Assembly (NCBI GenBank): GCA_020073165.1
Contig: JAIQFP010000001.1
Coordinates: forward strand, 248,001-312,000
Direction of reading: 5' to 3'
Length of the DNA: 64,000 nt
Origin: Terriglobia bacterium
GTDB taxonomy: Bacteria > Acidobacteriota > Terriglobia > Terriglobales > Acidobacteriaceae
Below are positions 4,421 to 21,772 of this stretch, piece by piece (positions within the stretch are counted from its first letter, which is position 1; the number at the start of each line of letters is the position of its first letter). The position numbers and the translations under genes are program-made. The notes under the pieces are model-generated. The model worked only from the letters and a program-made list of their open reading frames with translations. It did no database searches and had not been told where the DNA came from.

Positions 4421-5098
4421 ATGGAACGAATTCTGGTTGTCGAAGATGACCGTGCGGTACAGCGCGCACTTAAGCGCCTGTTTGAGACCGAAGGCTTTGC
4501 TGTGGAGATCAGTTCGGACGGAAAGTCGGCCTTGGAGGCCTTCCGCACGACCGCTCCCGCTGCCATCGTGCTCGACCTGCGTCTTCCTGCTATGTCGGGC
4601 CGCGACGTCTGCCGCGAAATCAAGCAGCAGTCGCCCTCGCTCCCTATTATTGTTCTGAGCGCGACCAGCGATGTTTCGGACAAAGTGCTGCTGCTCGAGC
4701 TCGGCGCCGACGATTACGTGACCAAGCCTTTCAGCCCGCGCGAGTTATTGGCCCGGGTGCGGGCCGCGTTGCGGCGCAACGTGCGCACCGGCACCGGCGA
4801 GATATTTGCCTTCGCCGGGATCTCCGTGGATTTCACCAAGATGGAAGTGAACCGCGATGGCGAGCCGGTGGCGCTCACCGCCCAGGAATTCAAGACCTTG
4901 AAATTCCTGGTGCAAAATGCGGAACGGGTTATCTCCCGTGATGAGCTGCTCAATGAAGTCTGGGGCTACCAGAATTACCCCTCGACCCGCACCGTGGACA
5001 ACCACATCCTGAAGTTGCGGCAGAAGCTGGAGAAGGATCCCGCGAATCCGGTACACTTCCGGACCGTTCACGGGATGGGCTACAAATTCGTACGCTAA
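4421..5098 (+). CDS. OmpR/PhoB-family response regulator
   Basis: A two-component DNA-binding response regulator of 225 residues. The receiver domain (residues 1-120) shows the acidic pair Asp9/Asp10, the phospho-acceptor Asp52 in VLDLRLP, Ser80 and the conserved Lys102 in TKPFSP. The C-terminal winged helix (about 130-225) has the family's LTAQEFKTLKFL start, the TVDNHILKLRQKLE recognition helix and the GMGYKF ending. The chosen ATG gives the usual family length. An in-frame ATG at 4325 with GGAG 7 bases upstream would add 32 residues with no domain similarity I recognise, and remains possible. The sensor kinase gene follows after 55 bases, so the two form a pair. The signal and target genes cannot be read from the sequence; the adjacent barrel and cupredoxin genes are plausible targets. 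Confidence 0.93.
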   Translation: MERILVVEDDRAVQRALKRLFETEGFAVEISSDGKSALEAFRTTAPAAIVLDLRLPAMSGRDVCREIKQQSPSLPIIVLSATSDVSDKVLLLELGADDYVTKPFSPRELLARVRAALRRNVRTGTGEIFAFAGISVDFTKMEVNRDGEPVALTAQEFKTLKFLVQNAERVISRDELLNEVWGYQNYPSTRTVDNHILKLRQKLEKDPANPVHFRTVHGMGYKFVR

Positions 5099-5153
5099 TG
5101 GAAGAGCAGGGAGCGGGACAGGTACAGCCGGGCTGTGGGGCAGGAGAGCAGGC

Positions 5154-6968
5154 ATGGTGAAACTTCGGATGCGGACCAAGTTCCTGCTCTCCATGCTGCT
5201 CATCTCCGCCGGGCTCACCTCCACCAGCCTTCTGCTGGTCCGCCGCAGCGTCCAGGCGCAGGTCAGGAACTCCCTGTTCTCCGACCTGCGTAATTCGGTC
5301 ACTACCTTTCAGAATTTCCAGCGGGAACGCGAACTTACCCTCACCCACTCGGCGGAGTTGCTCGCCGACCTGCCCAACCTGCGGGCCCTGATGACGACCC
5401 AGGACGAGGCTACCATTCAGGATGCGTCCGACGATCTGTGGCGCTTGGCTGGCACCGACCTGTTTGTGCTGGCCGACCGGACGGGAAGAGTGGTCGCCCT
5501 CCATACCGCATCCCCTGGTTTTACCCGCACCATGGCCCAGGATGCGCTGGGCACCGCCTTGAACCAGGAAGCTCCCGGCCACTGGTGGTTCGGCGCCAAC
5601 CATCTTTATGAGAGTTTTCTCAAGCCGATCTATTTTGGTCCCGCTAAGGACAACCGCCTGCTGGGTTTCCTGGTCATTGGCTATGAGATCGACGACAGGG
5701 TGGCTTCGCAGGTCAGCCGCATCGCGGCCAGCCAGGTCGCGTTCTACTACGGCGACACCATCGTTCGCAGCACCCTCACCCCGGAGCACGAGGCGGAACT
5801 GGCCCGCCTGCGCGGGCTTCATTCCACTCCCGGCGCGGCTGAGCCCGAACAGGTGCAACTAGGGGACGAGCGTTTTCTGGGCACCTCGCTGGAATTGGCT
5901 TCAGAAAAAAATCCTTCTGTGCGTCTGAGCGTCCTCAAGTCGTACGACCGGGCGACCGCCTTCCTGGACAGTCTGAACCGGCTCCTGCTGGCTCTTGGCC
6001 TGGCTGCCGTGCTCGGAGGCAGCGCGCTGGTCTTCTTTATCTCCCACACCTTTACCCGGCCGTTGGGAAATCTGGTGGCCGGGGTGCGCGCCCTGGAAAC
6101 GGGAGATTTTACCTATGCCCTCGATGCGCGCGGCGGCGATGAGGTGGCGGAGGTCACGGGAGCCTTCGACCGCATGCGCAACAGCCTGCTGAAAACCCAG
6201 CAGGAGTTGTTGGAGGCGGAACGGCTCGCCACCATTGGACGCATGGCGAGCTCGATCTCCCATGATCTGCGCCATTCCCTCGCCGCCATCGTGGCCAACG
6301 CGGAGTTCCTCTGCGAGAGCCGGCTGACCTCTGAACAGCGCGAGGATCTCTACCACGAGGTCCGGGTCGCCGTGAACCAGATGACCGACCTCATCGACTC
6401 GCTGCTGGAGTTCTCCCGCACCCGCGAGTCACTGCGCCCGACCTATGGCAGTGTCAAAGAAACCGTGGAGCGCGTGGTCCACAACATTCGGTCGCATCCC
6501 GAATTCCACCCCGTGCAGATCGCGGTGAACCAGACCGGCAGCAGCATCGGCTGGTTCGACCCCAAGAAGCTGGAGCGCGCTCTTTACAACCTCCTGCTCA
6601 ACGCCTGCGAGGCGGTGAGCGGCAACAACGGGCGCATTGACATCGACTTAAGCGAGTTTCCCGGGGGCGTCGAGGTTCGGGTGGCTGACAACGGCCGTGG
6701 CATTCCCGAATCCATTCGGGGCAAGCTCTTTGAACCGTTCGTGAGCTATGGCAAAGAGAATGGCACCGGATTGGGTCTCACCGTGGTGCAGAAGATTGTG
6801 CAAGATCATGGAGGTGACGTCACGGTGGAAAAAACGTCCAAAGAGGGGACGATTTTCCGGCTGGTGCTTCCGCTCGCCTCATCTTCCAACGGTGGCCCCG
6901 ATAGCCGTGGCGAAGGCAAGACCGCCACGCCACCACTGGTTCGGACAAAGCGGGCCCAGTCGGAGTAG
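5154..6968 (+). CDS. Membrane sensor histidine kinase
   Basis: A 604-residue inner-membrane histidine kinase, the probable partner of the preceding regulator. Transmembrane helix 1 covers about residues 9-29. A periplasmic sensor region of about 240 residues follows, with a LFVLADRTGRVVALHT segment typical of Cache/PAS-like folds, then helix 2 at about 275-298, a HAMP linker (300-350), a HisKA domain with phospho-acceptor His370 in SISHDLRHS, and a HATPase domain. The ATPase domain has the N-box LLLNACEAV, the G1 box DNGRGIPE and the G2 box GTGLGLTVV. All catalytic motifs are intact. The input signal is unknown; the sensor domain is soluble and periplasmic. Confidence 0.93.
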   Translation: MVKLRMRTKFLLSMLLISAGLTSTSLLLVRRSVQAQVRNSLFSDLRNSVTTFQNFQRERELTLTHSAELLADLPNLRALMTTQDEATIQDASDDLWRLAGTDLFVLADRTGRVVALHTASPGFTRTMAQDALGTALNQEAPGHWWFGANHLYESFLKPIYFGPAKDNRLLGFLVIGYEIDDRVASQVSRIAASQVAFYYGDTIVRSTLTPEHEAELARLRGLHSTPGAAEPEQVQLGDERFLGTSLELASEKNPSVRLSVLKSYDRATAFLDSLNRLLLALGLAAVLGGSALVFFISHTFTRPLGNLVAGVRALETGDFTYALDARGGDEVAEVTGAFDRMRNSLLKTQQELLEAERLATIGRMASSISHDLRHSLAAIVANAEFLCESRLTSEQREDLYHEVRVAVNQMTDLIDSLLEFSRTRESLRPTYGSVKETVERVVHNIRSHPEFHPVQIAVNQTGSSIGWFDPKKLERALYNLLLNACEAVSGNNGRIDIDLSEFPGGVEVRVADNGRGIPESIRGKLFEPFVSYGKENGTGLGLTVVQKIVQDHGGDVTVEKTSKEGTIFRLVLPLASSSNGGPDSRGEGKTATPPLVRTKRAQSE

Positions 6969-7074
6969 GATTTCCCAGGTTATGCCCGGGGTGCGCGCGA
7001 AATGCAGACCCCGCGGGTTCACTGAAACGTCATAGAGACAAGGTACTTCCCTAGTCTTCTTCGGGAGGCGAACT

Positions 7075-8715
7075 GTGAAGCACAAGAATGGTTTGTCTGG
7101 TTGCATTCGAGCATCCGGCACGCTGGGATTGCTTCTGCTGGCCTTCAGTGGTTCGGCGTGGACACAACAGGCCAGCCCGCCGCCCGCCGCCCCACCGGCC
7201 CCGCAGCAGGATTCCATGGTTGCCGCTATCCACGAACTGCAGGAACAGGTTCGCGAGTTGCGCTCCGCGGTGGAGGAGATGCGCGCCGAGGCTGCGCAGT
7301 ACCGCGCCGAGACCTCAGAGCTGCGGCGTGAACTGCAAGCTACTCGCAACGAGGGGGCGGTGGCATCCAACGGTGCGCCTCCGCAGGCGAGCTCGTATTC
7401 TGCTCCTGCGGCCACGGCCGCCGAACCCGTATTCCCGAACCCCAATTCCAAGCTGCCTCAGGAAGCCAGCGCCACACCCTCCGGATCTTTGGAGGACCGT
7501 GTCGCCGCCCTGGAAGACTCCACACAACTGCTCAGCAGCAAGGTCGACGACCAGTACCAAACCAAGGTCGAAAGCGCCTCCAAGTACAAAGTCAGGCTTT
7601 CCGGCATTGTGTTGTTGAACGCTTTCAGCAATCGGGGCGTGACCGACAATCAGGACGTTCCCAACTGGGCCAGTCCGCGGGCCCCGTTCGAACCCCAGGG
7701 GAATTTCGGCGCCACCATGCGGCAATCCGAGCTGGGGCTGGAGGTCTTCGGTCCCCGCCTGGCAGGGGCCAGAACCAGCGGGAACTTACAGTTGGACTTC
7801 TCCGGAGGGTTCCCGGTCACAGAAAACGGCGTGAATTTCGGAGTCGCCCGCCTGCGCATCGCCAGCATGCGGCTGGATTGGGATCACACCGCGATCGTTG
7901 CCGGCCAGGACAACCTGTTTCTGTCCCCGCTCTCCCCCACTTCCTTTGCTTCGCTCGCTCTACCTGAGTTCGCCTACGCCGGCAACCTTTGGGGATGGAT
8001 CCCACAGGTTCGCGTGGAGCATCGCTTCGATCTGTCCAGCAATCAGAGCGTCACTCTGCAGGGCGGCATCCTGGACAATCTGACCGGAGAGCAGCCTTAC
8101 CACACCTTTGACCGCAACCCGCAAGCGGGCGAAGCCTCGAGCCAGCCCGGTTTCGGAGTGCGCCTGGCCTGGACGCGGAACATCTTTGGTCGAAACCTGA
8201 CTCTGGGTGGAGCGGGCTACTACAGCCGGCAGAACTGGGGCTTCAACCGGCATGTCGATGGCTGGGCGGGGATGACAGACTGGGAAATTCCGCTCGCTTC
8301 CCGAGTCACGGTCTCGGGAGAGTTCTATCGCGGCCTGGCAGTCGGCGGATTCGGGGGCGCCGTCGGACGAAGCGTCCTGTTTGACCTGAATCCGATGCGG
8401 CCGGATGCGCAGTTGCGGGCGCTGGATTCCATCGGCGGGTGGTCGCAGTTGAAGGTCAAGGCCACAGCCAAACTGGAGTTCAACGGGGCCTTCGGCCTGG
8501 ATAATCCCTACGCGGAAGACGTTCGACCCTTCTCTGCCGTGCAGAGCTATTTTGGTTTGCTCTCGCAGAATCGCGGCGCTATGGTGAACGTCATCTACCG
8601 GCCGCGGTCGAACTTGCTGTTGTCCACCGAGTATAGACACTTGAAGACGTATGCGATCGACTCCGGCAACTCGACGGCCGACCAGGTGAACATGATGATG
8701 GGGATCCTTTTCTGA
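7075..8715 (+). CDS. Outer-membrane porin-like beta-barrel with N-terminal coiled coil
   Basis: The 546-residue product has a signal peptide (basic start, then LGLLLLAFSGSAW), a Pro/Ala-rich spacer and a coiled-coil segment at about residues 45-95 rich in Glu, Arg and Ala heptads. A second short helix precedes a long region of alternating polar and hydrophobic strands that ends in phenylalanine (MMGILF), the usual C-terminal signature of outer-membrane barrels. The layout resembles porins whose coiled coil reaches through the periplasm toward peptidoglycan. The transported substrate is unknown. The start is a GTG with GGGAGGCG just upstream. The cupredoxin gene starts 2 bases after its stop codon, so the two are one transcription unit. 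Confidence 0.8.
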   Translation: MKHKNGLSGCIRASGTLGLLLLAFSGSAWTQQASPPPAAPPAPQQDSMVAAIHELQEQVRELRSAVEEMRAEAAQYRAETSELRRELQATRNEGAVASNGAPPQASSYSAPAATAAEPVFPNPNSKLPQEASATPSGSLEDRVAALEDSTQLLSSKVDDQYQTKVESASKYKVRLSGIVLLNAFSNRGVTDNQDVPNWASPRAPFEPQGNFGATMRQSELGLEVFGPRLAGARTSGNLQLDFSGGFPVTENGVNFGVARLRIASMRLDWDHTAIVAGQDNLFLSPLSPTSFASLALPEFAYAGNLWGWIPQVRVEHRFDLSSNQSVTLQGGILDNLTGEQPYHTFDRNPQAGEASSQPGFGVRLAWTRNIFGRNLTLGGAGYYSRQNWGFNRHVDGWAGMTDWEIPLASRVTVSGEFYRGLAVGGFGGAVGRSVLFDLNPMRPDAQLRALDSIGGWSQLKVKATAKLEFNGAFGLDNPYAEDVRPFSAVQSYFGLLSQNRGAMVNVIYRPRSNLLLSTEYRHLKTYAIDSGNSTADQVNMMMGILF

Positions 8716-8716
8716 T

Positions 8717-9448
8717 ATGAACCCCACCCTTCCCTACCGCCGTTGGTGGTGCGCCCTGCTCCTTAGCAGCGCGCTGGCCTGCGCGCAGGAGGTCACCCTC
8801 TCGGCGCATGTGGCCCTGGTGAATCGGCATAGCTCCAGCCGCACTCCCAAACCTGGAAACGTAGTTCTGTGGCTGACGCCCATCGCCAGCCAGGCCGACC
8901 CCGATCCTGCGCCTCCGAGTTTGCAACCTCTCCGCTTGGTGCAGCACAACAAGAGCTTCGATCCCCATGTGCTGGTGGTACCGGTCGGTTCGCTGGTCGA
9001 ATTCCCCAACCGCGATCCTTTCTTTCACAATGTCTTCTCCCTATTCGAGGGCAAGCGCTTCGACCTTGGGCTTTACGAGGCTGGAAGCACCCGCAAGGTG
9101 CGTTTCGACAAGCCCGGCATCTCCTACATCTTCTGCAATATCCATGCTGAGATGAGTGCTGTGGTCATTGCCCTCGATACTCCGTACTACGGAATCTCCG
9201 ATTCCCGCGGGGAGGTCGCCATTTCCCATGTGCCCGTAGGCCGCTACCGGCTACATATTTGGTATGAGGAGGCAGTGCCGGACACGCTGAGGGCTCTGAC
9301 CCGGGAGATCACGGTATCCGACAGCGATGCCACGCTCGGCACTTTGCGCTTAGCCACCGCTGACTTGCCTCTGACGCATAAGAACAAGTACGGTCGCGAC
9401 TATGACCCGCCCGCTCCGACGGATAACCCGGCCTACCCGCACCCCTGA
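8717..9448 (+). CDS. Periplasmic cupredoxin-like (methylamine-utilisation type) protein
   Basis: A 243-residue exported protein: a signal peptide (about residues 10-24, ending ACAQ), then a plastocyanin-like domain and a short carboxypeptidase-regulatory-like domain (SDSRGEVAISHVPVGRYRLHIWYEE). The cupredoxin part contains PFFHN and later FCNIHAEM, giving the His, Cys, His, Met order of a type 1 copper site. Proteins of this architecture are often annotated as methylamine-utilisation proteins, although many have no link to methylamine. It probably carries electrons or copper in the periplasm. One base separates it from the upstream barrel gene, so joint function at the envelope is likely. Confidence 0.8.
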   Translation: MNPTLPYRRWWCALLLSSALACAQEVTLSAHVALVNRHSSSRTPKPGNVVLWLTPIASQADPDPAPPSLQPLRLVQHNKSFDPHVLVVPVGSLVEFPNRDPFFHNVFSLFEGKRFDLGLYEAGSTRKVRFDKPGISYIFCNIHAEMSAVVIALDTPYYGISDSRGEVAISHVPVGRYRLHIWYEEAVPDTLRALTREITVSDSDATLGTLRLATADLPLTHKNKYGRDYDPPAPTDNPAYPHP

Positions 9449-9802: not shown

Positions 9803-10807
9803 TTAACGCTTCTTCCCGGTGCCGGTCGCTTGATCGTGCCCGTAGTACTCATAAGCCGACATGGGTTTCTCGCCGCCCTTCTTCCACACCCGGCTGTCTT
9901 CCGCCACCTTGCCCAGCACCCGGGCCATCTCGCGGATGTGGATGGCGACCGAGCCGCAGCAGGCGCCGATGTAGTTGATGCCGATCTCCCGCGCCTGCCT
10001 GGCGTAGTCTCCCATCTCTTTGCGGGTGAGCTGCAAGGGATCGAGCGCATAGGGGAATTCCGGCAGGCTGGTGAAGTCGGGCTTGTCCCTGGGGGTGCGG
10101 TACGCCACCGGTTGGCAGGCTAGGTATCCCGATACCGCCTTCCTCATCTGTTCCATCGGCCCCAGCATATGTTCCGGCGGGCGCAGGCAATTCATGCCGA
10201 CAATATCCGCGCCCGCATCGAGCAGTGTTTTGGCGGCCTCGGCGGCACTCTTGCCCTCCGCAGTTTCATCTTTGTTCTCGAAGCAGATGGTCACCATCAC
10301 CGGCAGACCGGTCTTCTTCGCGCGCTCCACCGCCAGCAAGGCTTCTCCCAGCCAGGAGAAAGTTTCGCCTATGATGAAGTCCACGCCTTCTTCCACCTGT
10401 ACTGCCAGTTGCTCGTCGAACGTCTTGCGCACGCGATCGGCTGCGGCCGCACTGTTCGGCTCGTACATCCAGGTCAGACTCAGATTGCCCGCCACCAGGC
10501 AGCGGTCGCCTGCCACCTCGCGCGCGATCCGCACCGCAGCCCGGTTCAGATCCTCCAGGCGATTCTCCAGCCCGACTGTGGCCAGCTTGTCGCGGCTGGC
10601 GTAAAAGGTCAGCGCTTGCAGGACATCGGCCCCGGCCTCGCGAAACTCGACATGCAGTTCCCGCAGCGCGTCGGGATGAGTAAGCACCACTTCTGGTGTG
10701 AAGGGACCTGCCCGCACCCATCCCCGTTTTTCCAGTTCCAGCAGGTAACCGCCATCTCCCAGAACCGGGCCCTCTTTCAAGCGCTCCAGAATGCCCTTCT
10801 TTGTCAT
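9803..10807 (-). CDS. Betaine-homocysteine / homocysteine S-methyltransferase family protein
   Basis: A 334-residue zinc-dependent methyltransferase of the BHMT/homocysteine S-methyltransferase family, which moves a methyl group from betaine or a related methylated amine or sulfonium compound to homocysteine. The three zinc cysteines are visible as Cys207 in GMNCLRPPEH and Cys283/Cys284 in GACCGS, spaced as in BHMT; the N-terminal LGDGGYLLELEKRGW is the family start. I chose the ATG with GAAGGAG a few bases upstream; a longer frame adds 19 residues without similarity. It is the last of three minus-strand genes, behind two FAD oxidoreductases, with the Rieske gene close by. That context suggests a betaine-like substrate rather than S-methylmethionine; this is inference. 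Confidence 0.82.
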   Translation of the reverse strand: MTKKGILERLKEGPVLGDGGYLLELEKRGWVRAGPFTPEVVLTHPDALRELHVEFREAGADVLQALTFYASRDKLATVGLENRLEDLNRAAVRIAREVAGDRCLVAGNLSLTWMYEPNSAAAADRVRKTFDEQLAVQVEEGVDFIIGETFSWLGEALLAVERAKKTGLPVMVTICFENKDETAEGKSAAEAAKTLLDAGADIVGMNCLRPPEHMLGPMEQMRKAVSGYLACQPVAYRTPRDKPDFTSLPEFPYALDPLQLTRKEMGDYARQAREIGINYIGACCGSVAIHIREMARVLGKVAEDSRVWKKGGEKPMSAYEYYGHDQATGTGKKR

Positions 10808-10888
10808 ACGTGCTCCTTCGTTTCTTTCTAAGGGACGGGGTCGCGCCAGCTGTCGTGGGGGCACCTTGCCCTCACAGTGGGTAGCTGG

Positions 10889-12073
10889 CTAGTCGTCCTT
10901 GTATTCATACTCCGCCTTGATCGGCTGGCCTTCTGCAAACCGACTGGGGCGGAATGCGGCGATGTCCACGGTCTTTGCGCGGCCATCGAGCAACAACTCT
11001 GCCATCACCAGTCCGATGGCTGGAGAAATCTTAAATCCCATGCCGGAGAATCCGGCACACACATAGAGCCCATCCATTCCTGGGATTTCGCCCAGAATCG
11101 GCCGCGAATCAGGCGTCATGTCATAGACCCCGGTCACGCCGCGCATGACCTCCGCATTCTCCAGCTTGGGGATGCGGCGGCAAGCGCGCTCGATCATTTC
11201 TTCCAGCAGGTCGTCGGAAGCCCGCTGCGGAAAGTTATCAGGATCGACTCCTCTCTGCCCGTAGAAGTCGCCCACCAGAAACTTGTCCTGTCCATCGGAG
11301 CGGAAATAAGTCGCGGTCACCGAATCAATGCAGGCACAGCCGCCGCCTTTCATGGCGGGTGCGTTCTTCAGGATGGCAACCTGGTGGTACTCGTTCTCGA
11401 TCGGCAGGTCGTAGCCTGCGTTTTGGCACATTGGCCGGGTCCACGGCCCGGTCGCTGTCACCACGACCGGAGCGGAGATCTCACCATGATCGGAGACCAC
11501 GCCCCGGATCCGTCCGCCGTCCGCACGCACGGCGGTAACCTGTGTCTTGGGCAGGTAAGTAACGCCCAGGTCGCGGGCGCGGCTGAGGAAATCATTGGCA
11601 ACACCGGCGCCGTCACCGTAGCCCGAGTCCGGCTCGTAGGCGGCGAGATCGACCTCATCTACCGCCCAGTCTGGCTCCAACTTCTTCAGCTCTGTGCGCG
11701 AGATGAGTTGCACGTTCACTCCCAGGCCTTGCTGCATCTCCACGTTCAGCTTAAGCCGGGCGCTTTCGTTGGGGTGAACGATGCGCACGAAGCCAGTCTT
11801 GCGGAAATCTCCCGGTTCGCCCACGACTTCACGCCAGTGCTGGAACACGTGCAGGCTGACCACCGCCAGTTGCACCTCCGGCGGAAAACTGTAGTGCATG
11901 CGGATGAGCGCCGAGGATCGGCCGCTGCCGCCGCTTCCGACGTGGTCCTTATCGATGACCAGGATCTTCCCCGGGTTGCGTTGTGCCAGGTGAAAGGCGA
12001 TGGAGGCGCCCATAACCCCGGCGCCGATGATCACGATGTCGGCCGTCTTGGGCTGGGAGTTGCCGTGGCTCAT
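10889..12073 (-). CDS. FAD-dependent amine oxidoreductase (DadA/sarcosine-oxidase family)
   Basis: A 394-residue flavoprotein of the D-amino-acid oxidase/sarcosine oxidase/dimethylglycine oxidase superfamily, which oxidises C-N bonds of amino acids or N-methyl amines. The N-terminal dinucleotide fold has IVIIGAGVMGASIAFHLA (about residues 13-30), followed by an acidic VIDKD for the ribose. The C-terminal DSRPILGEIPGMDGLYVCAG and FSGMGFKISPAIG segments close the FAD site. No covalent-flavin cysteine can be assigned with certainty. Its ATG overlaps the stop of the upstream oxidoreductase by 4 bases, so the genes are translationally coupled. Next to a BHMT-like enzyme, dimethylglycine or sarcosine is a reasonable but unproven substrate. 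Confidence 0.83.
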   Translation of the reverse strand: MSHGNSQPKTADIVIIGAGVMGASIAFHLAQRNPGKILVIDKDHVGSGGSGRSSALIRMHYSFPPEVQLAVVSLHVFQHWREVVGEPGDFRKTGFVRIVHPNESARLKLNVEMQQGLGVNVQLISRTELKKLEPDWAVDEVDLAAYEPDSGYGDGAGVANDFLSRARDLGVTYLPKTQVTAVRADGGRIRGVVSDHGEISAPVVVTATGPWTRPMCQNAGYDLPIENEYHQVAILKNAPAMKGGGCACIDSVTATYFRSDGQDKFLVGDFYGQRGVDPDNFPQRASDDLLEEMIERACRRIPKLENAEVMRGVTGVYDMTPDSRPILGEIPGMDGLYVCAGFSGMGFKISPAIGLVMAELLLDGRAKTVDIAAFRPSRFAEGQPIKAEYEYKDD

Positions 12074-13698
12074 GCGGCCACCTCCTTGAAACGTCCCTTC
12101 TTCCAGTCACGCAGCGCCTGCTGCGCCGCATTGTGGCCGGGGGCTCCGGTGACGCCTCCGCCGGGATGCGCGCCCGCTCCGCACAGATAAAGGCCGACAA
12201 CTGGCGTGCGATATTGCGACCATCCCGGCACCGGACGCATAAAGAAGAGCTGTTCCAGGCTCAGGTCGCCATGAAAGATGTTGCCCTCGGTCAGACCATA
12301 GGTGCGCTCCAGATCGAGCGGCGTCAGCACCTGGCGCGCCACGACCGCGTTCGGCACATTGGGTGCATACTCGGCAATCTTTTTGACCACGCTGTCGCCC
12401 AGCGCCTCGCGCTTCTCATCCCACGTGCCTTGCCGCAGCCGGTATGGCACATACTGCACGAAGCAGGTCAAGATGTGCTTGCCGGCAGGCGCCAGCGAGT
12501 CATCGGCATTCGACGACACTACGCAATCCACCCAAAGCTCTTCGGGAATCTCGCCGAACTTCGCGATGTCGTAACAGCGCTCGGCAAATTCCAGCGACGG
12601 CACCAGGGTGTAGAACGTGCGCTCAAGCGGCGTGGCCCTCGCCGGGGTCCCGGTAAAGCGCGGCTCCTCGGCCAGCACCAGGTTGACCTTGGCGCAAGGG
12701 CCGTCCATCTTGATTCCGCGCACGGCATGTGTGAACTCTTCGGGAAGCTCACGCGCCGGAACCATGCCCAGGAAGGTCCGCTTGGGATCGGCGTTGGAGA
12801 GCACCATGCGTGCACGGATTTCGGTGCCATCCTCCAGCGCTACGCCACGCGCCCGCCCGTTGCGAACGTCAATCTGCGCGACCGGCGCCGACGTGCGAAT
12901 CTCGACTCCCAACTTCCGTCCCGCGGCTGCCAGAGCCTGGGTGATGGCGCCCATCCCGCCCATCACATGTCCGTAGAAGCCTTGCAGTTCGTGCTCCCCG
13001 CCGCTGAGCAGGTGAAACAGCAAGCCCAGCGCGCTTCCCGGCTGGTACGGGCCGCCGTGCTTGCCGTACACGTTGTTGGCGAGGAACAGGGTCTTGATGA
13101 CGTTCGACTCGTAATTGCGATCCAGGAATTCGCCCAGGCTGCCGGTGAGGAACGAAATCAATTGCGAGATCTCGCTGCTGGAAATTCCGCGAAAGCGTTT
13201 GCCGACGCGGAACAGGCCGGTCCAGCCTTGCAAGTTGTTCGTCCCGATGTCCGGAGGCGGCTCGAGGAAAAACGGTTGCAGGTAGCGAGCCAACTTCTTG
13301 AGCCGCTCATCCACGCGGACAAATGTGTCGGCATCCTTTGGCGAGAATTTGCGGAACTCCGCCACAGCCTGGTCTCGGTTCGCCCACCACGAAACCACTC
13401 GCCCGTCGGGGAAGGGAACCTGGATGGCAGGATCGCAGGGCACCATGCGCAAGCCATGCTGGGCGAGGTTGAGGTCTTTAATCACCTCCGGCCGCAGCAT
13501 GCTGGCAATATAAGAGGTAGTGGAGGCGCGGCAACCGGGCGCAATTTCTTCGGTCACACAGCATCCGCCGACAATTTCGCGCCGCTCCAGCACCAGTGTG
13601 GACAGTCCTGCGCGTGCCAGGTAAGCGGCAGCGGTCAGCCCGTTGTGGCCTCCACCGACCACAATGGCGTCATAAATTTTCTGAGAGTTGAACCCCAC
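12070..13698 (-). CDS. Phytoene-desaturase-like FAD oxidoreductase (PYROXD2 type)
   Basis: A 542-residue member of the CrtI/PYROXD2 flavoprotein group. The N-terminus has the dinucleotide motif IVVGGGHNGLTAAAYLARAG followed by VLERREIVGGCCVTEE, the usual start of the group. Residues near the C-terminus (GLYLCGAGAHPGGGVTGAPG) form the second FAD signature. Despite the CrtI resemblance, no carotenoid genes are nearby; in this family many members are uncharacterised amine or alcohol dehydrogenases. It is the first gene of the three-gene minus-strand operon and overlaps the next by 4 bases. The start is a GTG; the only upstream purine-rich stretch is weak. The divergent TetR gene begins about 125 bases away and probably controls it. 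Confidence 0.8.
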   Translation of the reverse strand: MGFNSQKIYDAIVVGGGHNGLTAAAYLARAGLSTLVLERREIVGGCCVTEEIAPGCRASTTSYIASMLRPEVIKDLNLAQHGLRMVPCDPAIQVPFPDGRVVSWWANRDQAVAEFRKFSPKDADTFVRVDERLKKLARYLQPFFLEPPPDIGTNNLQGWTGLFRVGKRFRGISSSEISQLISFLTGSLGEFLDRNYESNVIKTLFLANNVYGKHGGPYQPGSALGLLFHLLSGGEHELQGFYGHVMGGMGAITQALAAAGRKLGVEIRTSAPVAQIDVRNGRARGVALEDGTEIRARMVLSNADPKRTFLGMVPARELPEEFTHAVRGIKMDGPCAKVNLVLAEEPRFTGTPARATPLERTFYTLVPSLEFAERCYDIAKFGEIPEELWVDCVVSSNADDSLAPAGKHILTCFVQYVPYRLRQGTWDEKREALGDSVVKKIAEYAPNVPNAVVARQVLTPLDLERTYGLTEGNIFHGDLSLEQLFFMRPVPGWSQYRTPVVGLYLCGAGAHPGGGVTGAPGHNAAQQALRDWKKGRFKEVAA

Positions 13699-13807
13699 GT
13701 TCCGCTCTAACCCGCAGTCACAACTGCTGTCTGGCGGGCAACCTACATTACCGCAGACTCCCGCTAAATTGAATTGAAATTGTGATCAATTCTAGGGTAC
13801 AGTCTCA

Positions 13808-13820
13808 TGACTTGAGGTCA
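13808..13820. promoter_or_regulatory. Candidate operator between the oxidoreductase operon and tetR
   Basis: TGAC, five bases, GTCA forms an inverted repeat just before the TetR start. It overlaps a second, wider pair, CTCATG at 13804 and CATGAG at 13823. A divergent TetR promoter region commonly holds such a site; this one was picked by eye only. Confidence 0.35.
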
Positions 13821-13823
13821 GAC

Positions 13824-14510
13824 ATGAGTGGGATAGGCAGCAATCTGGTTTCTCCGCCGCGCTACCGTCACATGCCTCCACGGCCCCGTTCCGAGGGCAA
13901 GCGCACCCGCATCATTGACGCCGCCATGCGTCATTTTGCCGAGCAGGGCTACCATGCGGCCCGCGTCGGGGACATTGCTTCCGAATTGGGTATCGCCAAG
14001 GGATCTATCTTCCAGCACTTTGGCAGCAAAGATGGCCTGTTCTTTGAAGCCTACAAGAAGGCGGTGCGGTCCTTCCCCCGTTACCTCGATGCGCCTGCGG
14101 ACGTGCAAGGAAAGGGTTTCTTCGAGATACTGCGTTACTGGCTGGCATGCACTGAGCATCTCATCCACGAGGACTGGATCCCTTACCGTGTTTCGCTGCT
14201 GGGCAATTACGGCACCGACCTCACACTGAAGCGCGAGATCAACCGGTTTCTGCTGGCGGAAGACCCCTACGGCACGGTCGCCTTCGTGCGCTTCGGCCAG
14301 GAGCGTGGAGAGCTTCGCCAAGACCTGGATCAGGAGATGATCGTGTCCATCCTGGACTGGACCATGGAACGCTTTCAGGACGCGTTGCTTACCGAAGAGC
14401 TTGACCCCGGGCTCTTCCGCCGCCACGGAGACGTGGCAGAGAAAAAAGAAGCCCGCATCACCCAGTTTCTCGACGTGCTGCGAAGGGCAATCGGCATCGC
14501 CGAGCCGTAG
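13824..14510 (+). CDS. TetR/AcrR-family transcriptional regulator
   Basis: A 228-residue one-component repressor-type regulator. The N-terminal helix-turn-helix domain (about residues 25-72) is clear: RIIDAAMRHFAEQGYHAARV, then the DIASELGIAKGSIFQHFGSK turn and recognition helix and the KDGLFFEAY third helix. The remaining 150 residues are the ligand-binding dimerisation domain, with no recognisable ligand signature. The ATG at 13824 has GAGGT 5 bases upstream; an earlier GTG (13782) and a later ATG (13872) are possible. It sits between the divergent oxidoreductase operon and the Rieske gene (46 bases downstream, same strand), so it probably senses the amine substrate and controls both. Confidence 0.9.
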   Translation: MSGIGSNLVSPPRYRHMPPRPRSEGKRTRIIDAAMRHFAEQGYHAARVGDIASELGIAKGSIFQHFGSKDGLFFEAYKKAVRSFPRYLDAPADVQGKGFFEILRYWLACTEHLIHEDWIPYRVSLLGNYGTDLTLKREINRFLLAEDPYGTVAFVRFGQERGELRQDLDQEMIVSILDWTMERFQDALLTEELDPGLFRRHGDVAEKKEARITQFLDVLRRAIGIAEP

Positions 14511-14556
14511 CGCCGGCTGTTCTCCGGCCATAAGTGAGCAGGGGACAACAATAATA

Positions 14557-15693
14557 ATGAGCATGCCAACGTCGCTACAAGATATCTTCGCCAGCTACAA
14601 CGACCGCGCCCCGCTGTCGGAAGCCTCAACCATCCCCGCCCCCTGGTATGTAGACGCCCGTATCGGGGAACTGGAACGCCAAACGGTCTTCAGTAATGCC
14701 TGGCAAATGGTCGGCCGCGTTGACCAGGTGGAGAAGCCCGGCCAGTTTGTCACCGCGACCGTGGCGGGAGAGCCGATTGTGGTGGTTCGCGGCAACGATG
14801 GCGTGCTGCGCGGCTTCTTCAACGTCTGCCGTCACCACGCCGCTGCGGTCGTGACCGAGCCCTGCGGCCAGGCCTCCATCCTGCATTGTCCGTATCACGG
14901 GTGGAACTACGGTCTGGACGGCTCGCTGAAGGGCATGCCCGAGTTCGAAGGGGTGAAGGATTTCGACCGCCAGCAGAATGGGCTGGTCCCCGTCAAGGCA
15001 GAGATCTGGGAGAAGTTTGTATTCATCAACCTTGATCCCAAGGCCGCTCCATTGCGGGATTTTCTCGGCGGTTTGGTCAAGCGGGTTGCGCCGCTGGGCG
15101 TTACTCGGACGCATTACTTCGACAGTCGTACCTACGACATCCATTGCAACTGGAAAGTCTTCGTAGACAACTACCTCGACGGTGGATACCACGTCCCCCA
15201 TCTGCACAAGGGCCTGAGCTCGGTGCTCGACTACAAGCAGTACACCATCGAGAACGAAGACCGCTATTGCCTGCAATCCAGTCCCATGGTGGCTTCCGAC
15301 GAGGATGCCGCTACCGGCGCCACCCGCAAGGGTGACCGCGCCTGGTACTTCTGGCAATATCCCAACCTGATGATCAACTGCTACGAGGGCTACATGGACA
15401 CCAACCTGGTGCTGCCCCTCGATGTGGATCATTGCCGCGTGATTTTTGACTTCTACTTCGCCGACGTGAGCGAGGCGCGGCGCGAGTACAACCAGCAGAG
15501 CGTAGAGGTCGGCGCGCGGGTCCAGGATGAAGACCTGGGTATCTGCGAAGCAGTGCAGCGAGGACTGAAGTCGCGGGCCTACGGCGCGGGCAGGCTCTCA
15601 GTGCGGCGCGAGGCGGGGGAACATTTGTTCCATCGCCTGCTGGCGGGCGATTTGAAGCGGGGATTGGGAATCACGGCTGCGGCGGCTGATTGA
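14557..15693 (+). CDS. Rieske non-heme iron oxygenase, choline-monooxygenase-like
   Basis: A 378-residue aromatic-ring-hydroxylating-dioxygenase-type alpha subunit of the group that oxidises quaternary amines (choline monooxygenase, glycine betaine, carnitine and stachydrine demethylases). The Rieske cluster ligands are Cys91, His93, Cys111 and His114 (C-x-H-x17-C-x2-H). The mononuclear iron site is the motif DNYLDGGYHVPHLH with His212 and His217, and Asp208 as likely bridge between sites. The ATG is preceded by a GGGGA purine stretch. No reductase partner gene lies in the window, so electrons must come from elsewhere. With the BHMT-like enzyme and flavoproteins it suggests N-demethylation of a betaine-like compound. 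Confidence 0.88.
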   Translation: MSMPTSLQDIFASYNDRAPLSEASTIPAPWYVDARIGELERQTVFSNAWQMVGRVDQVEKPGQFVTATVAGEPIVVVRGNDGVLRGFFNVCRHHAAAVVTEPCGQASILHCPYHGWNYGLDGSLKGMPEFEGVKDFDRQQNGLVPVKAEIWEKFVFINLDPKAAPLRDFLGGLVKRVAPLGVTRTHYFDSRTYDIHCNWKVFVDNYLDGGYHVPHLHKGLSSVLDYKQYTIENEDRYCLQSSPMVASDEDAATGATRKGDRAWYFWQYPNLMINCYEGYMDTNLVLPLDVDHCRVIFDFYFADVSEARREYNQQSVEVGARVQDEDLGICEAVQRGLKSRAYGAGRLSVRREAGEHLFHRLLAGDLKRGLGITAAAAD

Positions 15694-15766: not shown

Positions 15767-17041
15767 TTGAAAACAGCTCTTGCACTCTTGCTGGGTGTCT
15801 CGCTGATGTGTGCCCTCGCTCCCGCCCAGGTCACCGCCATCAAAGCCGGTCGCCTCGTCGATCCTGACGCCGGCGCCGTTCTCACCGACCAGATCATTCT
15901 CATCCGCGACAACAAGATTGAAGCCGTCGGCAAGACCGTCGCCATCCCCGGCGAAGCCAAGGTCATCGACCTCTCCAAGATGACCGTCCTGCCCGGCCTC
16001 ATTGACTGTCACACTCACGTGGCCGACGCCGGAGACGCAGAGCCCATGGACGTGCTGAAGCATACTGCTTCGGAAACTGTTCTGGCCGCGATTCCCAACG
16101 CCCGCAAGATGCTGGAATCCGGCTTCACCACGGTGCGCGACGTGGGAACGTACCGCGCCCTAAACGACGTTGCGCTGCGGGACGCCATCGCCAAAGGCTA
16201 CGTGATCGGTCCGCGAATGTATGTCGCCGGAGCCTACATCACCATTACCGGAGGCGCCGGGGCCATGACCGGCATGGCGCCCGACATCCAGCTTCCCTGG
16301 GACCTGCGGTACGGCGAGGCCAACAGCCCCTGGGAGGTACGCCAGAAGGTTCGCCTGCTCGCCCATGATGGCGTGGACCTCATCAAGGTCCTCTCCAGCG
16401 GCGCCGTCCTCACCCACGGCAGCAATCCCAAGTCGCAGGAGTTCACGCCTGAGGAGTTGCACGCCGCCGTGGACGAGGCCAGCCAGTTCGGGCTCAAAGT
16501 TGCTTCCCACGCGCATTCGCCGCAGGGCATCAAGAACGCCATCCTCGCCGGAGTCGCTTCGGTCGAGCACGCCACCATGATTGATGACGAGGGCATCGCG
16601 CTCGCCAAACAGCACGGCACCTATCTCGACATGGATATCTACGACGAAGAGTGCATCCAGCAGGCAGGAAGGGAAGGGAAAGAACCCAAAGATTTCCTCG
16701 AGCACGACGCCGAGTTAGGCCAGATCCAGCGCGACAACTTCCGCAAAGCCGTCAAAGCCGGGGTGAAGATGGCGTTCGGCACCGACGCCGGAGTCTGTCC
16801 CTACGGCACCAGCGGCAAACAGTTCGCCCTCATGGTGAAGTACGGCATGACCCCGATGCAGGCCATCCAGGCCGCCACCACCAACGCCGCCGATCTGCTT
16901 GGGCACTCGGACGTGATTGGTTCCATCAAGCCGGGAAAGTACGCGGACATCGTCGCGGTGTCGGGCGATCCGCTCTCAGACATCAACGTGCTGGAGAATG
17001 TGCAGTTGGTCATGAAGGATGGGAAGGTGTACAAACCGTAA
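15767..17041 (+). CDS. Exported metal-dependent amidohydrolase (Xaa-Pro dipeptidase / imidazolonepropionase-like)
   Basis: A 424-residue amidohydrolase-superfamily enzyme with a signal peptide (KTALALLLGVSLMCALAPAQ), so it acts outside the cytoplasm. The TIM-barrel metal ligands are visible: His82 and His84 in DCHTH, a likely carboxylated lysine in DLIKVLSSG, histidines in VASHAHS and VEHATM, and the catalytic aspartate in FGTDAGV. The C-terminal GSIKPGKYADIVAV is the usual end of the composite beta domain. The start is taken as TTG with GAGGTGAC about 6 bases upstream because this exposes the signal peptide; a GTG at 15728 would hide it behind 13 residues. The substrate is probably a dipeptide or cyclic amide, not determinable here. 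Confidence 0.87.
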   Translation: MKTALALLLGVSLMCALAPAQVTAIKAGRLVDPDAGAVLTDQIILIRDNKIEAVGKTVAIPGEAKVIDLSKMTVLPGLIDCHTHVADAGDAEPMDVLKHTASETVLAAIPNARKMLESGFTTVRDVGTYRALNDVALRDAIAKGYVIGPRMYVAGAYITITGGAGAMTGMAPDIQLPWDLRYGEANSPWEVRQKVRLLAHDGVDLIKVLSSGAVLTHGSNPKSQEFTPEELHAAVDEASQFGLKVASHAHSPQGIKNAILAGVASVEHATMIDDEGIALAKQHGTYLDMDIYDEECIQQAGREGKEPKDFLEHDAELGQIQRDNFRKAVKAGVKMAFGTDAGVCPYGTSGKQFALMVKYGMTPMQAIQAATTNAADLLGHSDVIGSIKPGKYADIVAVSGDPLSDINVLENVQLVMKDGKVYKP

Positions 17042-19723: not shown

Positions 19724-21772
19724 TCACTGGTGGTCGCGGGGAATCGTTTCCTGCCAGGTTTTGGTCTTGAGCAACTTCCCGTCTTTCAGCAGCTCGCGGG
19801 TGTACTTGTAATAAAAGTTGCGCGCGTCGCTGGTGACCGAAAGGTGTCCCCGGTACGACAGCACGCGTACTTTCAGCGCGAAGATGCTCTCGGTCTCCCC
19901 GTGGACTGCGTTGGCCTCGGGATGGGCGTCGTCGAGGTCGTACTGCATACTTTCGAAGTCGTTCTCCCTGCCCCAGGGGAACTCGGCTGCGTCTTTGCCT
20001 TTCCAATGGACGGTTGTCTTCTGCCGTGCCTCGTCGCGCTCCACGGTCCACTCGCCGGGCCAGGGGAAGCCTTCGCTGCGAATGTCCTTACGCTCTTCTT
20101 CCGGTTCAGGCGGTGCAAACGCAGGCGGAGTCGCGCCCTTGACTGGAACGACCGGCAGCACCACTCGTGACCCGTCTGCGCCGCCCAGCTCCAGCGACGT
20201 GGTCATCGCATACGGCGTTGGCCATGTCATTGGCCACAACGCATTGGAGACTGCCACGCGAATGCGATGTCCCTTTGGAAAGACCCATGAGGTGAGGTGC
20301 ATTTCGATGTCGAGCGGATAAACCTTCCCCGGCTCCAGATCGTGTGGCTCGGTCATTGAATCGCGCTGCGCCCCGTTCAACCCCGCGCCGGTAATCTGCG
20401 TTACCGAACCATCAGGCGCCACATCGGAGAGGCGCACAAACCACTCCGCCAGCGGGACCGGTGCCGAAGCGCGCAGCAACGCATGCGGCCTTCCCAGGAT
20501 TGCCAGCTCTTCCTGCAACGGGGCCGAGTCATAGACCAGGCTGAAAGCGTCCACCGGCCGAACGTCGCTCAACAGTTCCCCCCACCAGAAGCCGGCCTCC
20601 ACCCCGATCGATGGCACATACTTGAGCTGGTGCACCGCTTCCAGCGAAGCTCCGTCCGCCAGCGTGTGATTCGCTTGCAGGAACATCGCCTGGTTCTGCG
20701 CATCCGGCGGAGGCCAGCTATCTTCTCTTCGCCACTCGCCGGGCACAGTCTCAAGATTCGGATCGGGCGGCCGCCAGTGCTGCATGAAAACGACCAGCTT
20801 CGGGTCCTGCAACACGCCCGTGTCTTTCCCTTTGAGCCAGTAGTCCCACCAGCGCACCGCATGATCGCGCCACTCCACGCGGGGGCCGAAGTCGGCATTG
20901 TTGGGGAAGGAGTGGTTCCAGGGGCCCATGATCGCCTTTACCGGGGCTTTGGTTTGCGCCAGCATGTCGGTGACGCTGTCGCGATATCCGTCCTGCAACC
21001 CGCCGATCACAAAGCATGGAATCTTGATCTCGCTGTAAGGCCACACCGGACTGCGCCAGAACGGGCCATCATGCTGATGCTTCATGTAGAGCAGCGACCA
21101 TGGAGCGGCATCGAAATGCGGGCCCAGCACTTTTTCATCGAGTGGGTAGTCGGGGGCTCCGGTAAACCCGGGCGCCAGGTCCATATTCAGTTCGAACTCG
21201 TCAATGTGCATCATGCCGTCCATGTAGTGGACGTCGTCGTGAAACAGTTCGGCGGTGGCATCCACCGCAATGATGGCCTTCAATTCCGGCGGATGCCGCA
21301 TGGCCATCTGCAGGGCGTTGAAGCCTCCCCACGAAATCCCGAACATGCCCACGTTGCCGTTCGACCACGGCTGGGTCGCCAGCCAGTGGATGATTTGTTC
21401 GCCGTCAATTTGTTCCTGCTCGGAATACTCGCGATCGGTGGGAGCGCCTTCGCTGGCGCCAAAGCCGCGGATATCCACGCGCGCGCCCACGTATCCGCGA
21501 CGCGCAAAGTAAGCGTGCTTGGGATAGTCCCCGGCAGCCGTGCCGTCGTCCTTGCGGTAGGGAAGGTACTCGAGCAGGGCGGGGAATTTCTCTCCCGGCT
21601 TGGCGCCGTCGGGCATGTAGAGAGTTGCCGCCAGCCGCACGCCGTCTTGCATCGGAATCCAGGTGCGCTCCATGCGCACGCCGTAGGCCGGCGGCGAAGG
21701 AGGTTCCACTGCAAAGCCGGGCAAACTCGCCGCCGCGGCCAGCAGGCATACATCAACCAGTCGTCGGACCAA
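19724..21772 (-). CDS. Exported CocE/NonD-type alpha/beta hydrolase (S15 family)
   Basis: A 682-residue enzyme of the CocE/NonD family, related to X-Pro dipeptidyl-peptidases and cocaine esterase. A signal peptide (residues 1-21) is followed by the alpha/beta-hydrolase domain, with nucleophile Ser147 in GISWGG and a family RGFGASEG segment at about 102-109. The C-terminal jelly-roll domain (about 400 onward) contains the MHLTSWVFPKGHRIRVAV strand typical of the group. The substrate may be an acyl-amino-acid, peptide or ester. The start is TTG 21772, with GGAG 8 bases upstream; an upstream TTG would translate the AT-rich repeat at 21787-21815 and is unlikely. The RpiR-type regulator gene lies 77 bases upstream in the same direction. 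Confidence 0.88.
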   Translation of the reverse strand: MVRRLVDVCLLAAAASLPGFAVEPPSPPAYGVRMERTWIPMQDGVRLAATLYMPDGAKPGEKFPALLEYLPYRKDDGTAAGDYPKHAYFARRGYVGARVDIRGFGASEGAPTDREYSEQEQIDGEQIIHWLATQPWSNGNVGMFGISWGGFNALQMAMRHPPELKAIIAVDATAELFHDDVHYMDGMMHIDEFELNMDLAPGFTGAPDYPLDEKVLGPHFDAAPWSLLYMKHQHDGPFWRSPVWPYSEIKIPCFVIGGLQDGYRDSVTDMLAQTKAPVKAIMGPWNHSFPNNADFGPRVEWRDHAVRWWDYWLKGKDTGVLQDPKLVVFMQHWRPPDPNLETVPGEWRREDSWPPPDAQNQAMFLQANHTLADGASLEAVHQLKYVPSIGVEAGFWWGELLSDVRPVDAFSLVYDSAPLQEELAILGRPHALLRASAPVPLAEWFVRLSDVAPDGSVTQITGAGLNGAQRDSMTEPHDLEPGKVYPLDIEMHLTSWVFPKGHRIRVAVSNALWPMTWPTPYAMTTSLELGGADGSRVVLPVVPVKGATPPAFAPPEPEEERKDIRSEGFPWPGEWTVERDEARQKTTVHWKGKDAAEFPWGRENDFESMQYDLDDAHPEANAVHGETESIFALKVRVLSYRGHLSVTSDARNFYYKYTRELLKDGKLLKTKTWQETIPRDHQ

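Follow-up and report, generated by a model that had tools for sequence, protein, structure and literature searches.

A BHMT-like methyltransferase, two FAD oxidoreductases, a TetR-family regulator and a Rieske oxygenase form one conserved, co-regulated unit in a Terriglobia bacterium, and the parts of this unit belong to known enzyme families. On balance, the locus is probably half of a regulon, under TetR control, that demethylates an imported quaternary amine step by step; this amine would be either a betaine or some N-trimethylated amino acid. No description of such a unit was found in the accessible portions of the literature searched, which included Acidobacteria combined with betaine, PYROXD2, PurU and homarine.

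The window analyzed here is a 64,000-nucleotide stretch of DNA in which all five open reading frames are present and intact, arranged around one divergent regulator as an earlier, sequence-only reading had described. On the minus strand lie the BHMT-like homocysteine S-methyltransferase (334 aa, 9803-10807, likely ATG start at 10807; PF02574, 166 bits), a DAO-family, sarcosine-oxidase-beta-like FAD oxidoreductase (394 aa, 10889-12073; PF01266, 222 bits) and a PYROXD2/CrtO-like FAD oxidoreductase (542 aa, 12070-13698; Amino_oxidase PF01593, 70 bits), the stop of the last sharing four bases (12070-12073) with the start of the DAO gene. The plus strand carries the TetR-family regulator (212 aa, 13872-14510; TetR_N PF00440, 64 bits) and a Rieske/mononuclear-iron oxygenase of the quaternary-amine (group V) type (378 aa, 14557-15693; Rieske 66 and Ring_hydroxyl_A 113 bits). 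These searches agree at the superfamily level with the family names given previously. The PYROXD2 label, also used in the sequence-only reading, is a presumptive family name for the window protein. The earlier statement that no Rieske reductase is present is correct for the locus, but three genes elsewhere in the genome encode a PF00175 reductase domain, none of them identified as the partner. One weak sigma-70-like promoter match was found against 0.3 expected, and we draw no promoter conclusion from it.

Linkage of these genes exceeds chance. With the BHMT-like protein as query we collected 50 loci in 48 assemblies, each titled Acidobacteria or a subgroup, and across them the genes are not unlinked in all relatives. 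A PYROXD2-like gene lies upstream of the BHMT gene in 41 of the 44 loci that reach far enough, TetR lies upstream in 30 of 38, and a Rieske gene is found in 30 of 38. The DAO gene is optional (upstream in 20/47). Of the 44 BHMT loci whose upstream sequence spans 6 kb or more, eight are without Rieske or TetR (L094, L099, L102, L108, L111, L133, L134 and L135), and three of these (L102, L111 and L134) also lack the PYROXD2-like gene. One genome with BHMT (G012) has no close Rieske ortholog. In a genome from another family (G331), the unit has a 45% Rieske protein and is joined by DAO, a further Rieske gene and an APC permease.

The sequence-only reading of the pathway was incomplete, as a second locus with a folate-linked enzyme lies about 155 kb away, outside its sight. 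There, a GcvT-like folate enzyme is accompanied by two PYROXD2-like genes, which together with that of the window are the only three in the genome. All 14 of the 14 relatives that have a close Rieske ortholog carry the GcvT-like gene, compared with 4/47 others; at the phylum level the figures are 13/13 and 29/383, counts that ignore kinship in both cases. At 10 of the 17 Rieske loci without BHMT, Rieske and GcvT-like genes lie in one fetched stretch. The best match of the GcvT-like protein (P0007) is the THF domain of TMAO demethylase (185 bits to 9q5a, 290 bits to NF053776); unlike that domain it stands alone, scores under the 1100-bit cut-off and has its gene at the second locus, outside the window. 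PurU, its family confirmed, adjoins the Rieske gene in relatives with BHMT (L125-L128, L139) and without it (L075, L077, L080), and no PurU ortholog was found in the bacterium's own genome. An APC permease gene neighbors BHMT in some relatives; in this genome, one neighbors the GcvT-like gene. Among nine plasmid places with PYROXD2-like genes, four (L141-L144) have a PYROXD2-like pair with a GcvT-like gene and one (L146) has a single PYROXD2-like gene with a 30% GcvT match; no GcvT match was found at L145, L156, L157 and L158. On alphaproteobacterial plasmids the pair and the GcvT-like gene are accompanied by genes for Rieske proteins, an aminotransferase and polyamine-type transporters. A Gemmatirosa locus (L140) has the Rieske gene as the only one of the set, and among plasmids the BHMT-like protein found only seven distant homologs, of 29-31% identity.

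The region between the divergent units contains an exact TGAC-N5-GTCA palindrome, TGACTTGAGGTCA (13808-13820, unstranded), which occurs once in the window, and a degenerate second copy with one mismatch (13708-13720, unstranded). We presume the palindrome to be the TetR operator; the likely TetR start is the ATG at 13872, and a longer TetR frame would enclose it. At least one copy is present in 37/37 of the intergenic regions between TetR and the PYROXD2-like gene, and two exact copies in 32/37 of the relatives' regions. In all, these regions hold 69 sites, compared with 0.04 expected from genome density and none for the reversed control. The palindrome also occurs in the divergent region between the GcvT-like gene and its PYROXD2-like neighbor in 4 of 15 loci (0.04 expected; Poisson P 1e-7), the exact form being absent from the other 11, and the second locus of the bacterium's own genome has neither an exact nor a one-mismatch copy. 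Per-genome totals show no genome-wide enrichment: in none of eight genomes did the palindrome outnumber its reversed control.

The Rieske oxygenase has all the group V features, namely the CxH-CxxH cluster, a 2-His-1-Asp iron site and a bridging carboxylate. The motif C-x-H-x17-C-x2-H is found in the window protein, the iron ligands H212/H217/D326 (gene numbering) are kept in 53/53 Rieske sequences, and the bridge is Asp in 52 and Glu in one. The best solved match is CntA (6y9c, 176 bits), and by E-value the predicted model is nearest to CntA and then to stachydrine demethylase. Fold, metal ligands and bridging carboxylate are shared with both the Vb enzymes GbcAB and Stc2 and the Va enzymes CntA, CMO and OxyBAC (excerpts of PMC7948474). 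At the position of CntA Y203, 48 sequences have Tyr and five Phe; according to the same excerpts, an aromatic here marks group Va (carnitine, choline, benzalkonium), not the demethylating group Vb, in which the glycine-betaine and stachydrine demethylases have Asn. The window enzyme has Tyr here. It differs from GbcAB and Stc2 in having this aromatic instead of Asn, and it scores 130 bits against a cut-off of 670 with the glycine betaine monooxygenase GbcA model (NF058607). It differs from known group V enzymes in that the bridge is mostly Asp, not Glu, and no reductase gene adjoins, and from CntA in that the F258 position is Ala and the Y315 position Gly, Ser or Ala. Pocket comparison was by sequence position, as the model loop 210-225 has pLDDT below 50.

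The group Va aromatic, the nearness of CntA and the human type of the BHMT are in line with a choline route, in which a CMO-like Rieske enzyme would form betaine aldehyde, a dehydrogenase encoded elsewhere would act on it, and BHMT and the flavoenzymes would take glycine betaine to glycine. However, of the spinach CMO2 aromatic box (Y281, Y295, F301; excerpts of PMC6157903), counted here from the His ligand and not from a CMO2 alignment, position 281 is aromatic and 301 is Tyr, but 295 is Leu in 53/53 sequences. The same paper, in its accessible part, holds choline to be an unlikely substrate of bacterial CMO-like proteins, and a betaine-aldehyde dehydrogenase was not found among the examined ORFs of the locus. 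We regard this route as rather unlikely.

The BHMT-like protein is, by sequence and predicted fold, nearer to human BHMT than to any other solved family. Human and rat BHMT match it at 231-235 bits, versus 107 bits for the best MetH, and Foldseek ranks 1-14 for the predicted model are all BHMT, human BHMT being nearest (TMq 0.79-0.81 for the top seven, except one 8d45 chain at 0.78). The bacterial Bmt model NF005718 (PRK07534) scores 99.8 bits, below its curated cut-off of 338. The zinc cysteines C207, C283 and C284 (human C217, C299 and C300) are present in 48/48 aligned acidobacterial sequences, window included, and the zinc ligands are invariant in 15/15 down to 48% identity; with the Rieske results above, this bears out the earlier report of intact metal ligands. 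The human substrate site comprises D26, G27, G28, W44, F76, Y77, E159, Y160, F261 and F267 (Evans 2002, quoted in excerpts of PMC9713302). Eight of the ten are retained, most aromatic ones among them (F267 is F251 here), but W44 is Phe and Y160 is Thr in 48/48 acidobacterial sequences. These two replacements would suit a sulfonium donor, S-methylmethionine or DMSP, both used by family members (excerpts of PMC12366255), with the neighboring enzymes acting on something else. We find this improbable, because MmuM is the more remote structure (TMq 0.65-0.71, 18% identity) and linkage to N-demethylating flavoenzymes and Rieske enzymes recurs, distant relatives included. True sarcosine oxidase, monomeric-sarcosine-oxidase-type or GbcA-like Rieske enzymes adjoin distant BHMT relatives, and demethylase-type neighbors were found at 6 of 8 such loci inspected (L175-L177, L179-L181; L178, L179 and L180 are one genus and non-independent). 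L179 has true soxA/soxB near a 51% BHMT relative, the L178 contig stops short of where two relatives of its genus have sox-like genes, and L134 has no demethylase-type neighbor within the fetched stretch. The GcvT-like gene, PurU and, next to distant BHMT relatives, true sarcosine oxidase all indicate N-demethylation and the transfer of one-carbon units.

The DAO protein shares its fold with heterotetrameric and monomeric sarcosine oxidases (best PDB chain 1y56_B, 161 bits), but differs in scoring 137 bits against the soxB cut-off of 529 (TIGR01373). The top NCBIfam model for the PYROXD2-like protein is CrtO (NF045689), and Rieske domains are often ring-hydroxylating, yet a role outside amine catabolism, in which a carotenoid-like or aromatic compound is oxidatively modified and the methyltransferase serves general methionine supply, is improbable given a CrtO score of 288 bits against a cut-off of 1000, a Rieske protein nearest to quaternary-amine enzymes, and GcvT-like and PurU partners.

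Under the favored regulon reading, homocysteine would become methionine by accepting one methyl group that the BHMT-like enzyme takes from the quaternary nitrogen. The Rieske enzyme would use O2, and electrons supplied by a reductase whose gene lies elsewhere, to attack the quaternary amine or some bulkier precursor of it. Oxidation of the N-methyl groups that remain would fall to the two flavoenzymes, PYROXD2-like and DAO, the GcvT-like enzyme would pass one-carbon units to tetrahydrofolate, and PurU may be the formyl-THF outlet in some relatives. We infer these reactions, their order and TetR binding to the palindrome. The original proposal, demethylation of a betaine-like amine with methyl transfer to homocysteine, agrees with the conserved unit, the BHMT kinship and the demethylation-type partners, but W44F/Y160T make betaine less certain as the donor, and the group Va residue makes demethylation by the Rieske enzyme less certain. 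Both features count against the regulon, as do the second locus lacking the palindrome, the missing PurU, the BHMT loci without Rieske or TetR, G012, and the absence of a reductase from the locus.

The SAR11 glycine-betaine pathway consists of bhmT, dmgdh and sardh (excerpts of PMC3160333), and is alike in that a human-type BHMT gives the first methyl to homocysteine and folate-linked flavoenzymes take the others. Here, in contrast, there are a lone DAO and PYROXD2-like proteins, a separate GcvT-like protein, an added Rieske oxygenase with TetR and palindrome, and a soil acidobacterial host. In its accessible part, PMC12478193 proposes that only SAR11 couples glycine betaine demethylation to methionine through a single BHMT and that human binding residues are kept only in the SAR11-type enzyme. 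If our reading is true, soil Acidobacteria make methionine with a methyl from a quaternary amine by means of a human-type BHMT and without cobalamin, against the proposal that SAR11 is alone among bacteria in this, and the PYROXD2-like family gains a testable role, N-methyl amine oxidation, in organisms simpler than humans. With the palindrome and a small gene set, the substrate question is directly testable. It is possible, though doubtful, that PYROXD2-like proteins are N-methyl-amine oxidases and that through the regulon an N-trimethylated amino acid, for instance trimethyllysine, loses its methyls singly, homocysteine (through BHMT) and tetrahydrofolate (through the GcvT-like enzyme) being interchangeable sinks; relatives that lack BHMT would then manage with a Rieske, a GcvT-like and two PYROXD2-like proteins, with or without PurU. 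Human PYROXD2 is associated with N6-methyllysine and related metabolites (excerpts of PMC8109053), no enzymatic activity for it was found in the accessible literature searched, and the trimethyllysine reading, if true, would hint at its job.

Finally, two hydrolase genes lie downstream of the Rieske gene. An Xaa-Pro dipeptidase-like amidohydrolase (15806-17041; NF051886, 522 bits, cut-off 500) was left out of the unit because it is unneeded for demethylation and absent from more than half of the loci (nearby in 15/37). A CocE/NonD hydrolase (19724-21673; TIGR00976, 252 bits, cut-off 66) was left out because no demethylation step needs it, and the hint of proline betaine given by the pair was set aside on the same grounds; the CocE/NonD gene is nearby in 27/36 loci.

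The five open reading frames at 9803-15693 are as the sequence-only reading described them, coordinates and family searches being in agreement. On the minus strand, the PYROXD2-like gene (13698-12070) comes first and overlaps DAO (12073-10889) by 4 bases, and the BHMT-like gene (10807-9803) is last; divergently, on the plus strand, TetR (13872-14510) is followed by the Rieske gene (14557-15693). We file the locus as a set of known enzyme families in a layout not found described, a variant of the betaine/quaternary-amine demethylation pathways. No description of this layout was found in a literature search that covered few subscription journals.

By sequence, the solved proteins closest to the BHMT-like protein are rat and human BHMT (231-235 bits; top MetH, 107). 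Every one of Foldseek ranks 1-14 for its predicted fold (mean pLDDT 85) is a BHMT, and TMq is 0.72-0.78 for MetH and 0.65-0.71 for MmuM. PMC9713302 gives the human substrate-site residues as D26, G27, G28, W44, F76, Y77, E159, Y160, F261 and F267. All are kept here except W44, which is F, and Y160, which is T, in 48 of 48 aligned BHMT-like sequences; F36 and T149 (BHMT-like numbering) are unchanged among homologs down to 48% identity. The absence of an aromatic cage, which would speak against the betaine-like amine proposed earlier, was not borne out, because the aromatic positions of the site are mostly kept. According to PMC12478193, S. meliloti-type homologs lack the GBT-binding residues and the SAR11 type alone retains them; the protein studied here is intermediate between the two.

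The Rieske enzyme has all of its metal ligands intact, and its closest solved protein is carnitine monooxygenase CntA, both by sequence (176 bits) and by Foldseek E-value, with stachydrine demethylase next in Foldseek at a similar TM-score. The position of CntA Y203 is Tyr in 48 of 53 sequences and Phe in 5, which is the group Va mark by the criterion in PMC7948474. CntA Y225 and N270 are retained, Y295 is F, F258 is A and Y315 is G, S or A. Since the group Va substrates named in that source are carnitine, choline and benzalkonium (PMC7948474), demethylation by this enzyme is only our guess. Choline is not favoured as its substrate because its residue at CMO2 position 295 is Leu.

A genome-collection scan with the BHMT-like query returned 50 loci in 48 assemblies, every one titled Acidobacteria or a subgroup. 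Among loci reaching far enough upstream, a PYROXD2-like gene was present in 41/44, TetR and Rieske each in 30/38, and DAO in 20/47. TetR or Rieske was missing at eight loci (L094, L099, L102, L108, L111, L133, L134 and L135), and L102, L111 and L134 had no partner gene of the unit at all. At L175, in a genome outside the window's family (G331), APC, a 45% Rieske and TetR on the minus strand face PYROXD2-like, DAO, BHMT and a second Rieske on the plus strand. BHMT orthologs (at least 80% identity) occurred in 7 genomes among 61 relatives, and matches at E<=1e-60 in 8 of 396 phylum genomes.

Common flanks of the unit in relatives are an Xaa-Pro dipeptidase-like amidohydrolase (15806-17041, plus; 15/37 loci) and a CocE/NonD hydrolase (19724-21673, minus; 27/36). 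Response regulator and histidine kinase genes form a block with two more ORFs at 4421-9448 (plus); its members are kept at 6 loci each, and it also adjoins BHMT at L102 and L111, where the other genes of the unit are absent. A PQQ synthesis cluster (753-2802, plus), some 7 kb away from the locus, contains PqqC (313 bits, cut-off 240), a small ORF and PqqE (514 bits, cut-off 381).

The palindrome TGAC-N5-GTCA lies between the divergent units in 37/37 regions (the window plus 36 loci with TetR adjoining a PYROXD2-like gene), in two copies in 32 of them, spaced 76-77 or 98-103 bases apart. These regions hold 69 sites versus 0.04 expected from the density in eight genomes (191 sites in 35.5 Mb), and a reversed control motif gave 0 sites in them. 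The copy at 13808-13820 is the sole exact one within the 64-kb window, and a one-mismatch copy lies at 13708-13720. We infer that TetR binds this palindrome.

A second locus was found because Rieske genes of relatives without BHMT pointed there. Among 17 such stretches fetched (L073-L089), a GcvT-like gene accompanies Rieske in 10; a tandem PYROXD2-like pair is likewise present in 7, and PurU (387 bits, cut-off 286) in 3. The closest match of the GcvT-like protein is the folate domain of trimethylamine N-oxide demethylase. In the window's own genome (4.6 Mb), the second locus is on the same contig, about 155 kb from the five genes; two PYROXD2-like genes, the genome's only ones besides the window's, diverge from the GcvT-like gene, which is followed by an amino-acid permease whose group also occurs at 9 BHMT loci. 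A search of this genome found no PurU ortholog. The palindrome was not found in its GcvT/PYROXD2-like divergent region; such regions carry it at 4/15 loci (L085, L152, L153, L154) versus 0.04 expected (P 1e-7). Kinship ignored, the GcvT-like gene was present in 14/14 relatives with a close Rieske ortholog versus 4/47 others among the 61, and in a phylum draw in 13/13 versus 29/383, counts that include three partial Rieske and GcvT matches. One acidobacterial genome (G069:C1) has four genes homologous to this GcvT-like group, each matching at E<=1e-100.

The neighbours of more distantly related BHMT genes are a true sarcosine oxidase at L179 (tblastn shows this arrangement at L180 too), enzymes of the N-methyltryptophan/monomeric sarcosine oxidase type at L176 and L177, and a pair of GbcA-like Rieske genes at L181. 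The window's PYROXD2-like protein may be related to human PYROXD2, a link by name. Variants of the human gene account for up to half of blood N6-methyllysine variance, as stated in PMC8109053. On alphaproteobacterial plasmids (L141-L144), TetR occurs together with a PYROXD2-like pair and a GcvT-like gene; close by are Rieske, ABC transporter and PLP aminotransferase genes, the last exceeding the PRK07036 cut-off in 3/4. On Sinorhizobium meliloti pSymA (L155, 1204000-1222000), a 41% GcvT-like gene adjoins PurU and, as judged by eye on the ORFs, glyA-, metF-, serine-glyoxylate-aminotransferase- and VanA-like genes; this would be another one-carbon demethylation operon. On a Shinella sumterensis plasmid (L146), PYROXD2-like and gcvT genes are grouped with acyl-CoA genes and one for a 3-keto-5-aminohexanoate cleavage enzyme, perhaps a carnitine-type pathway.
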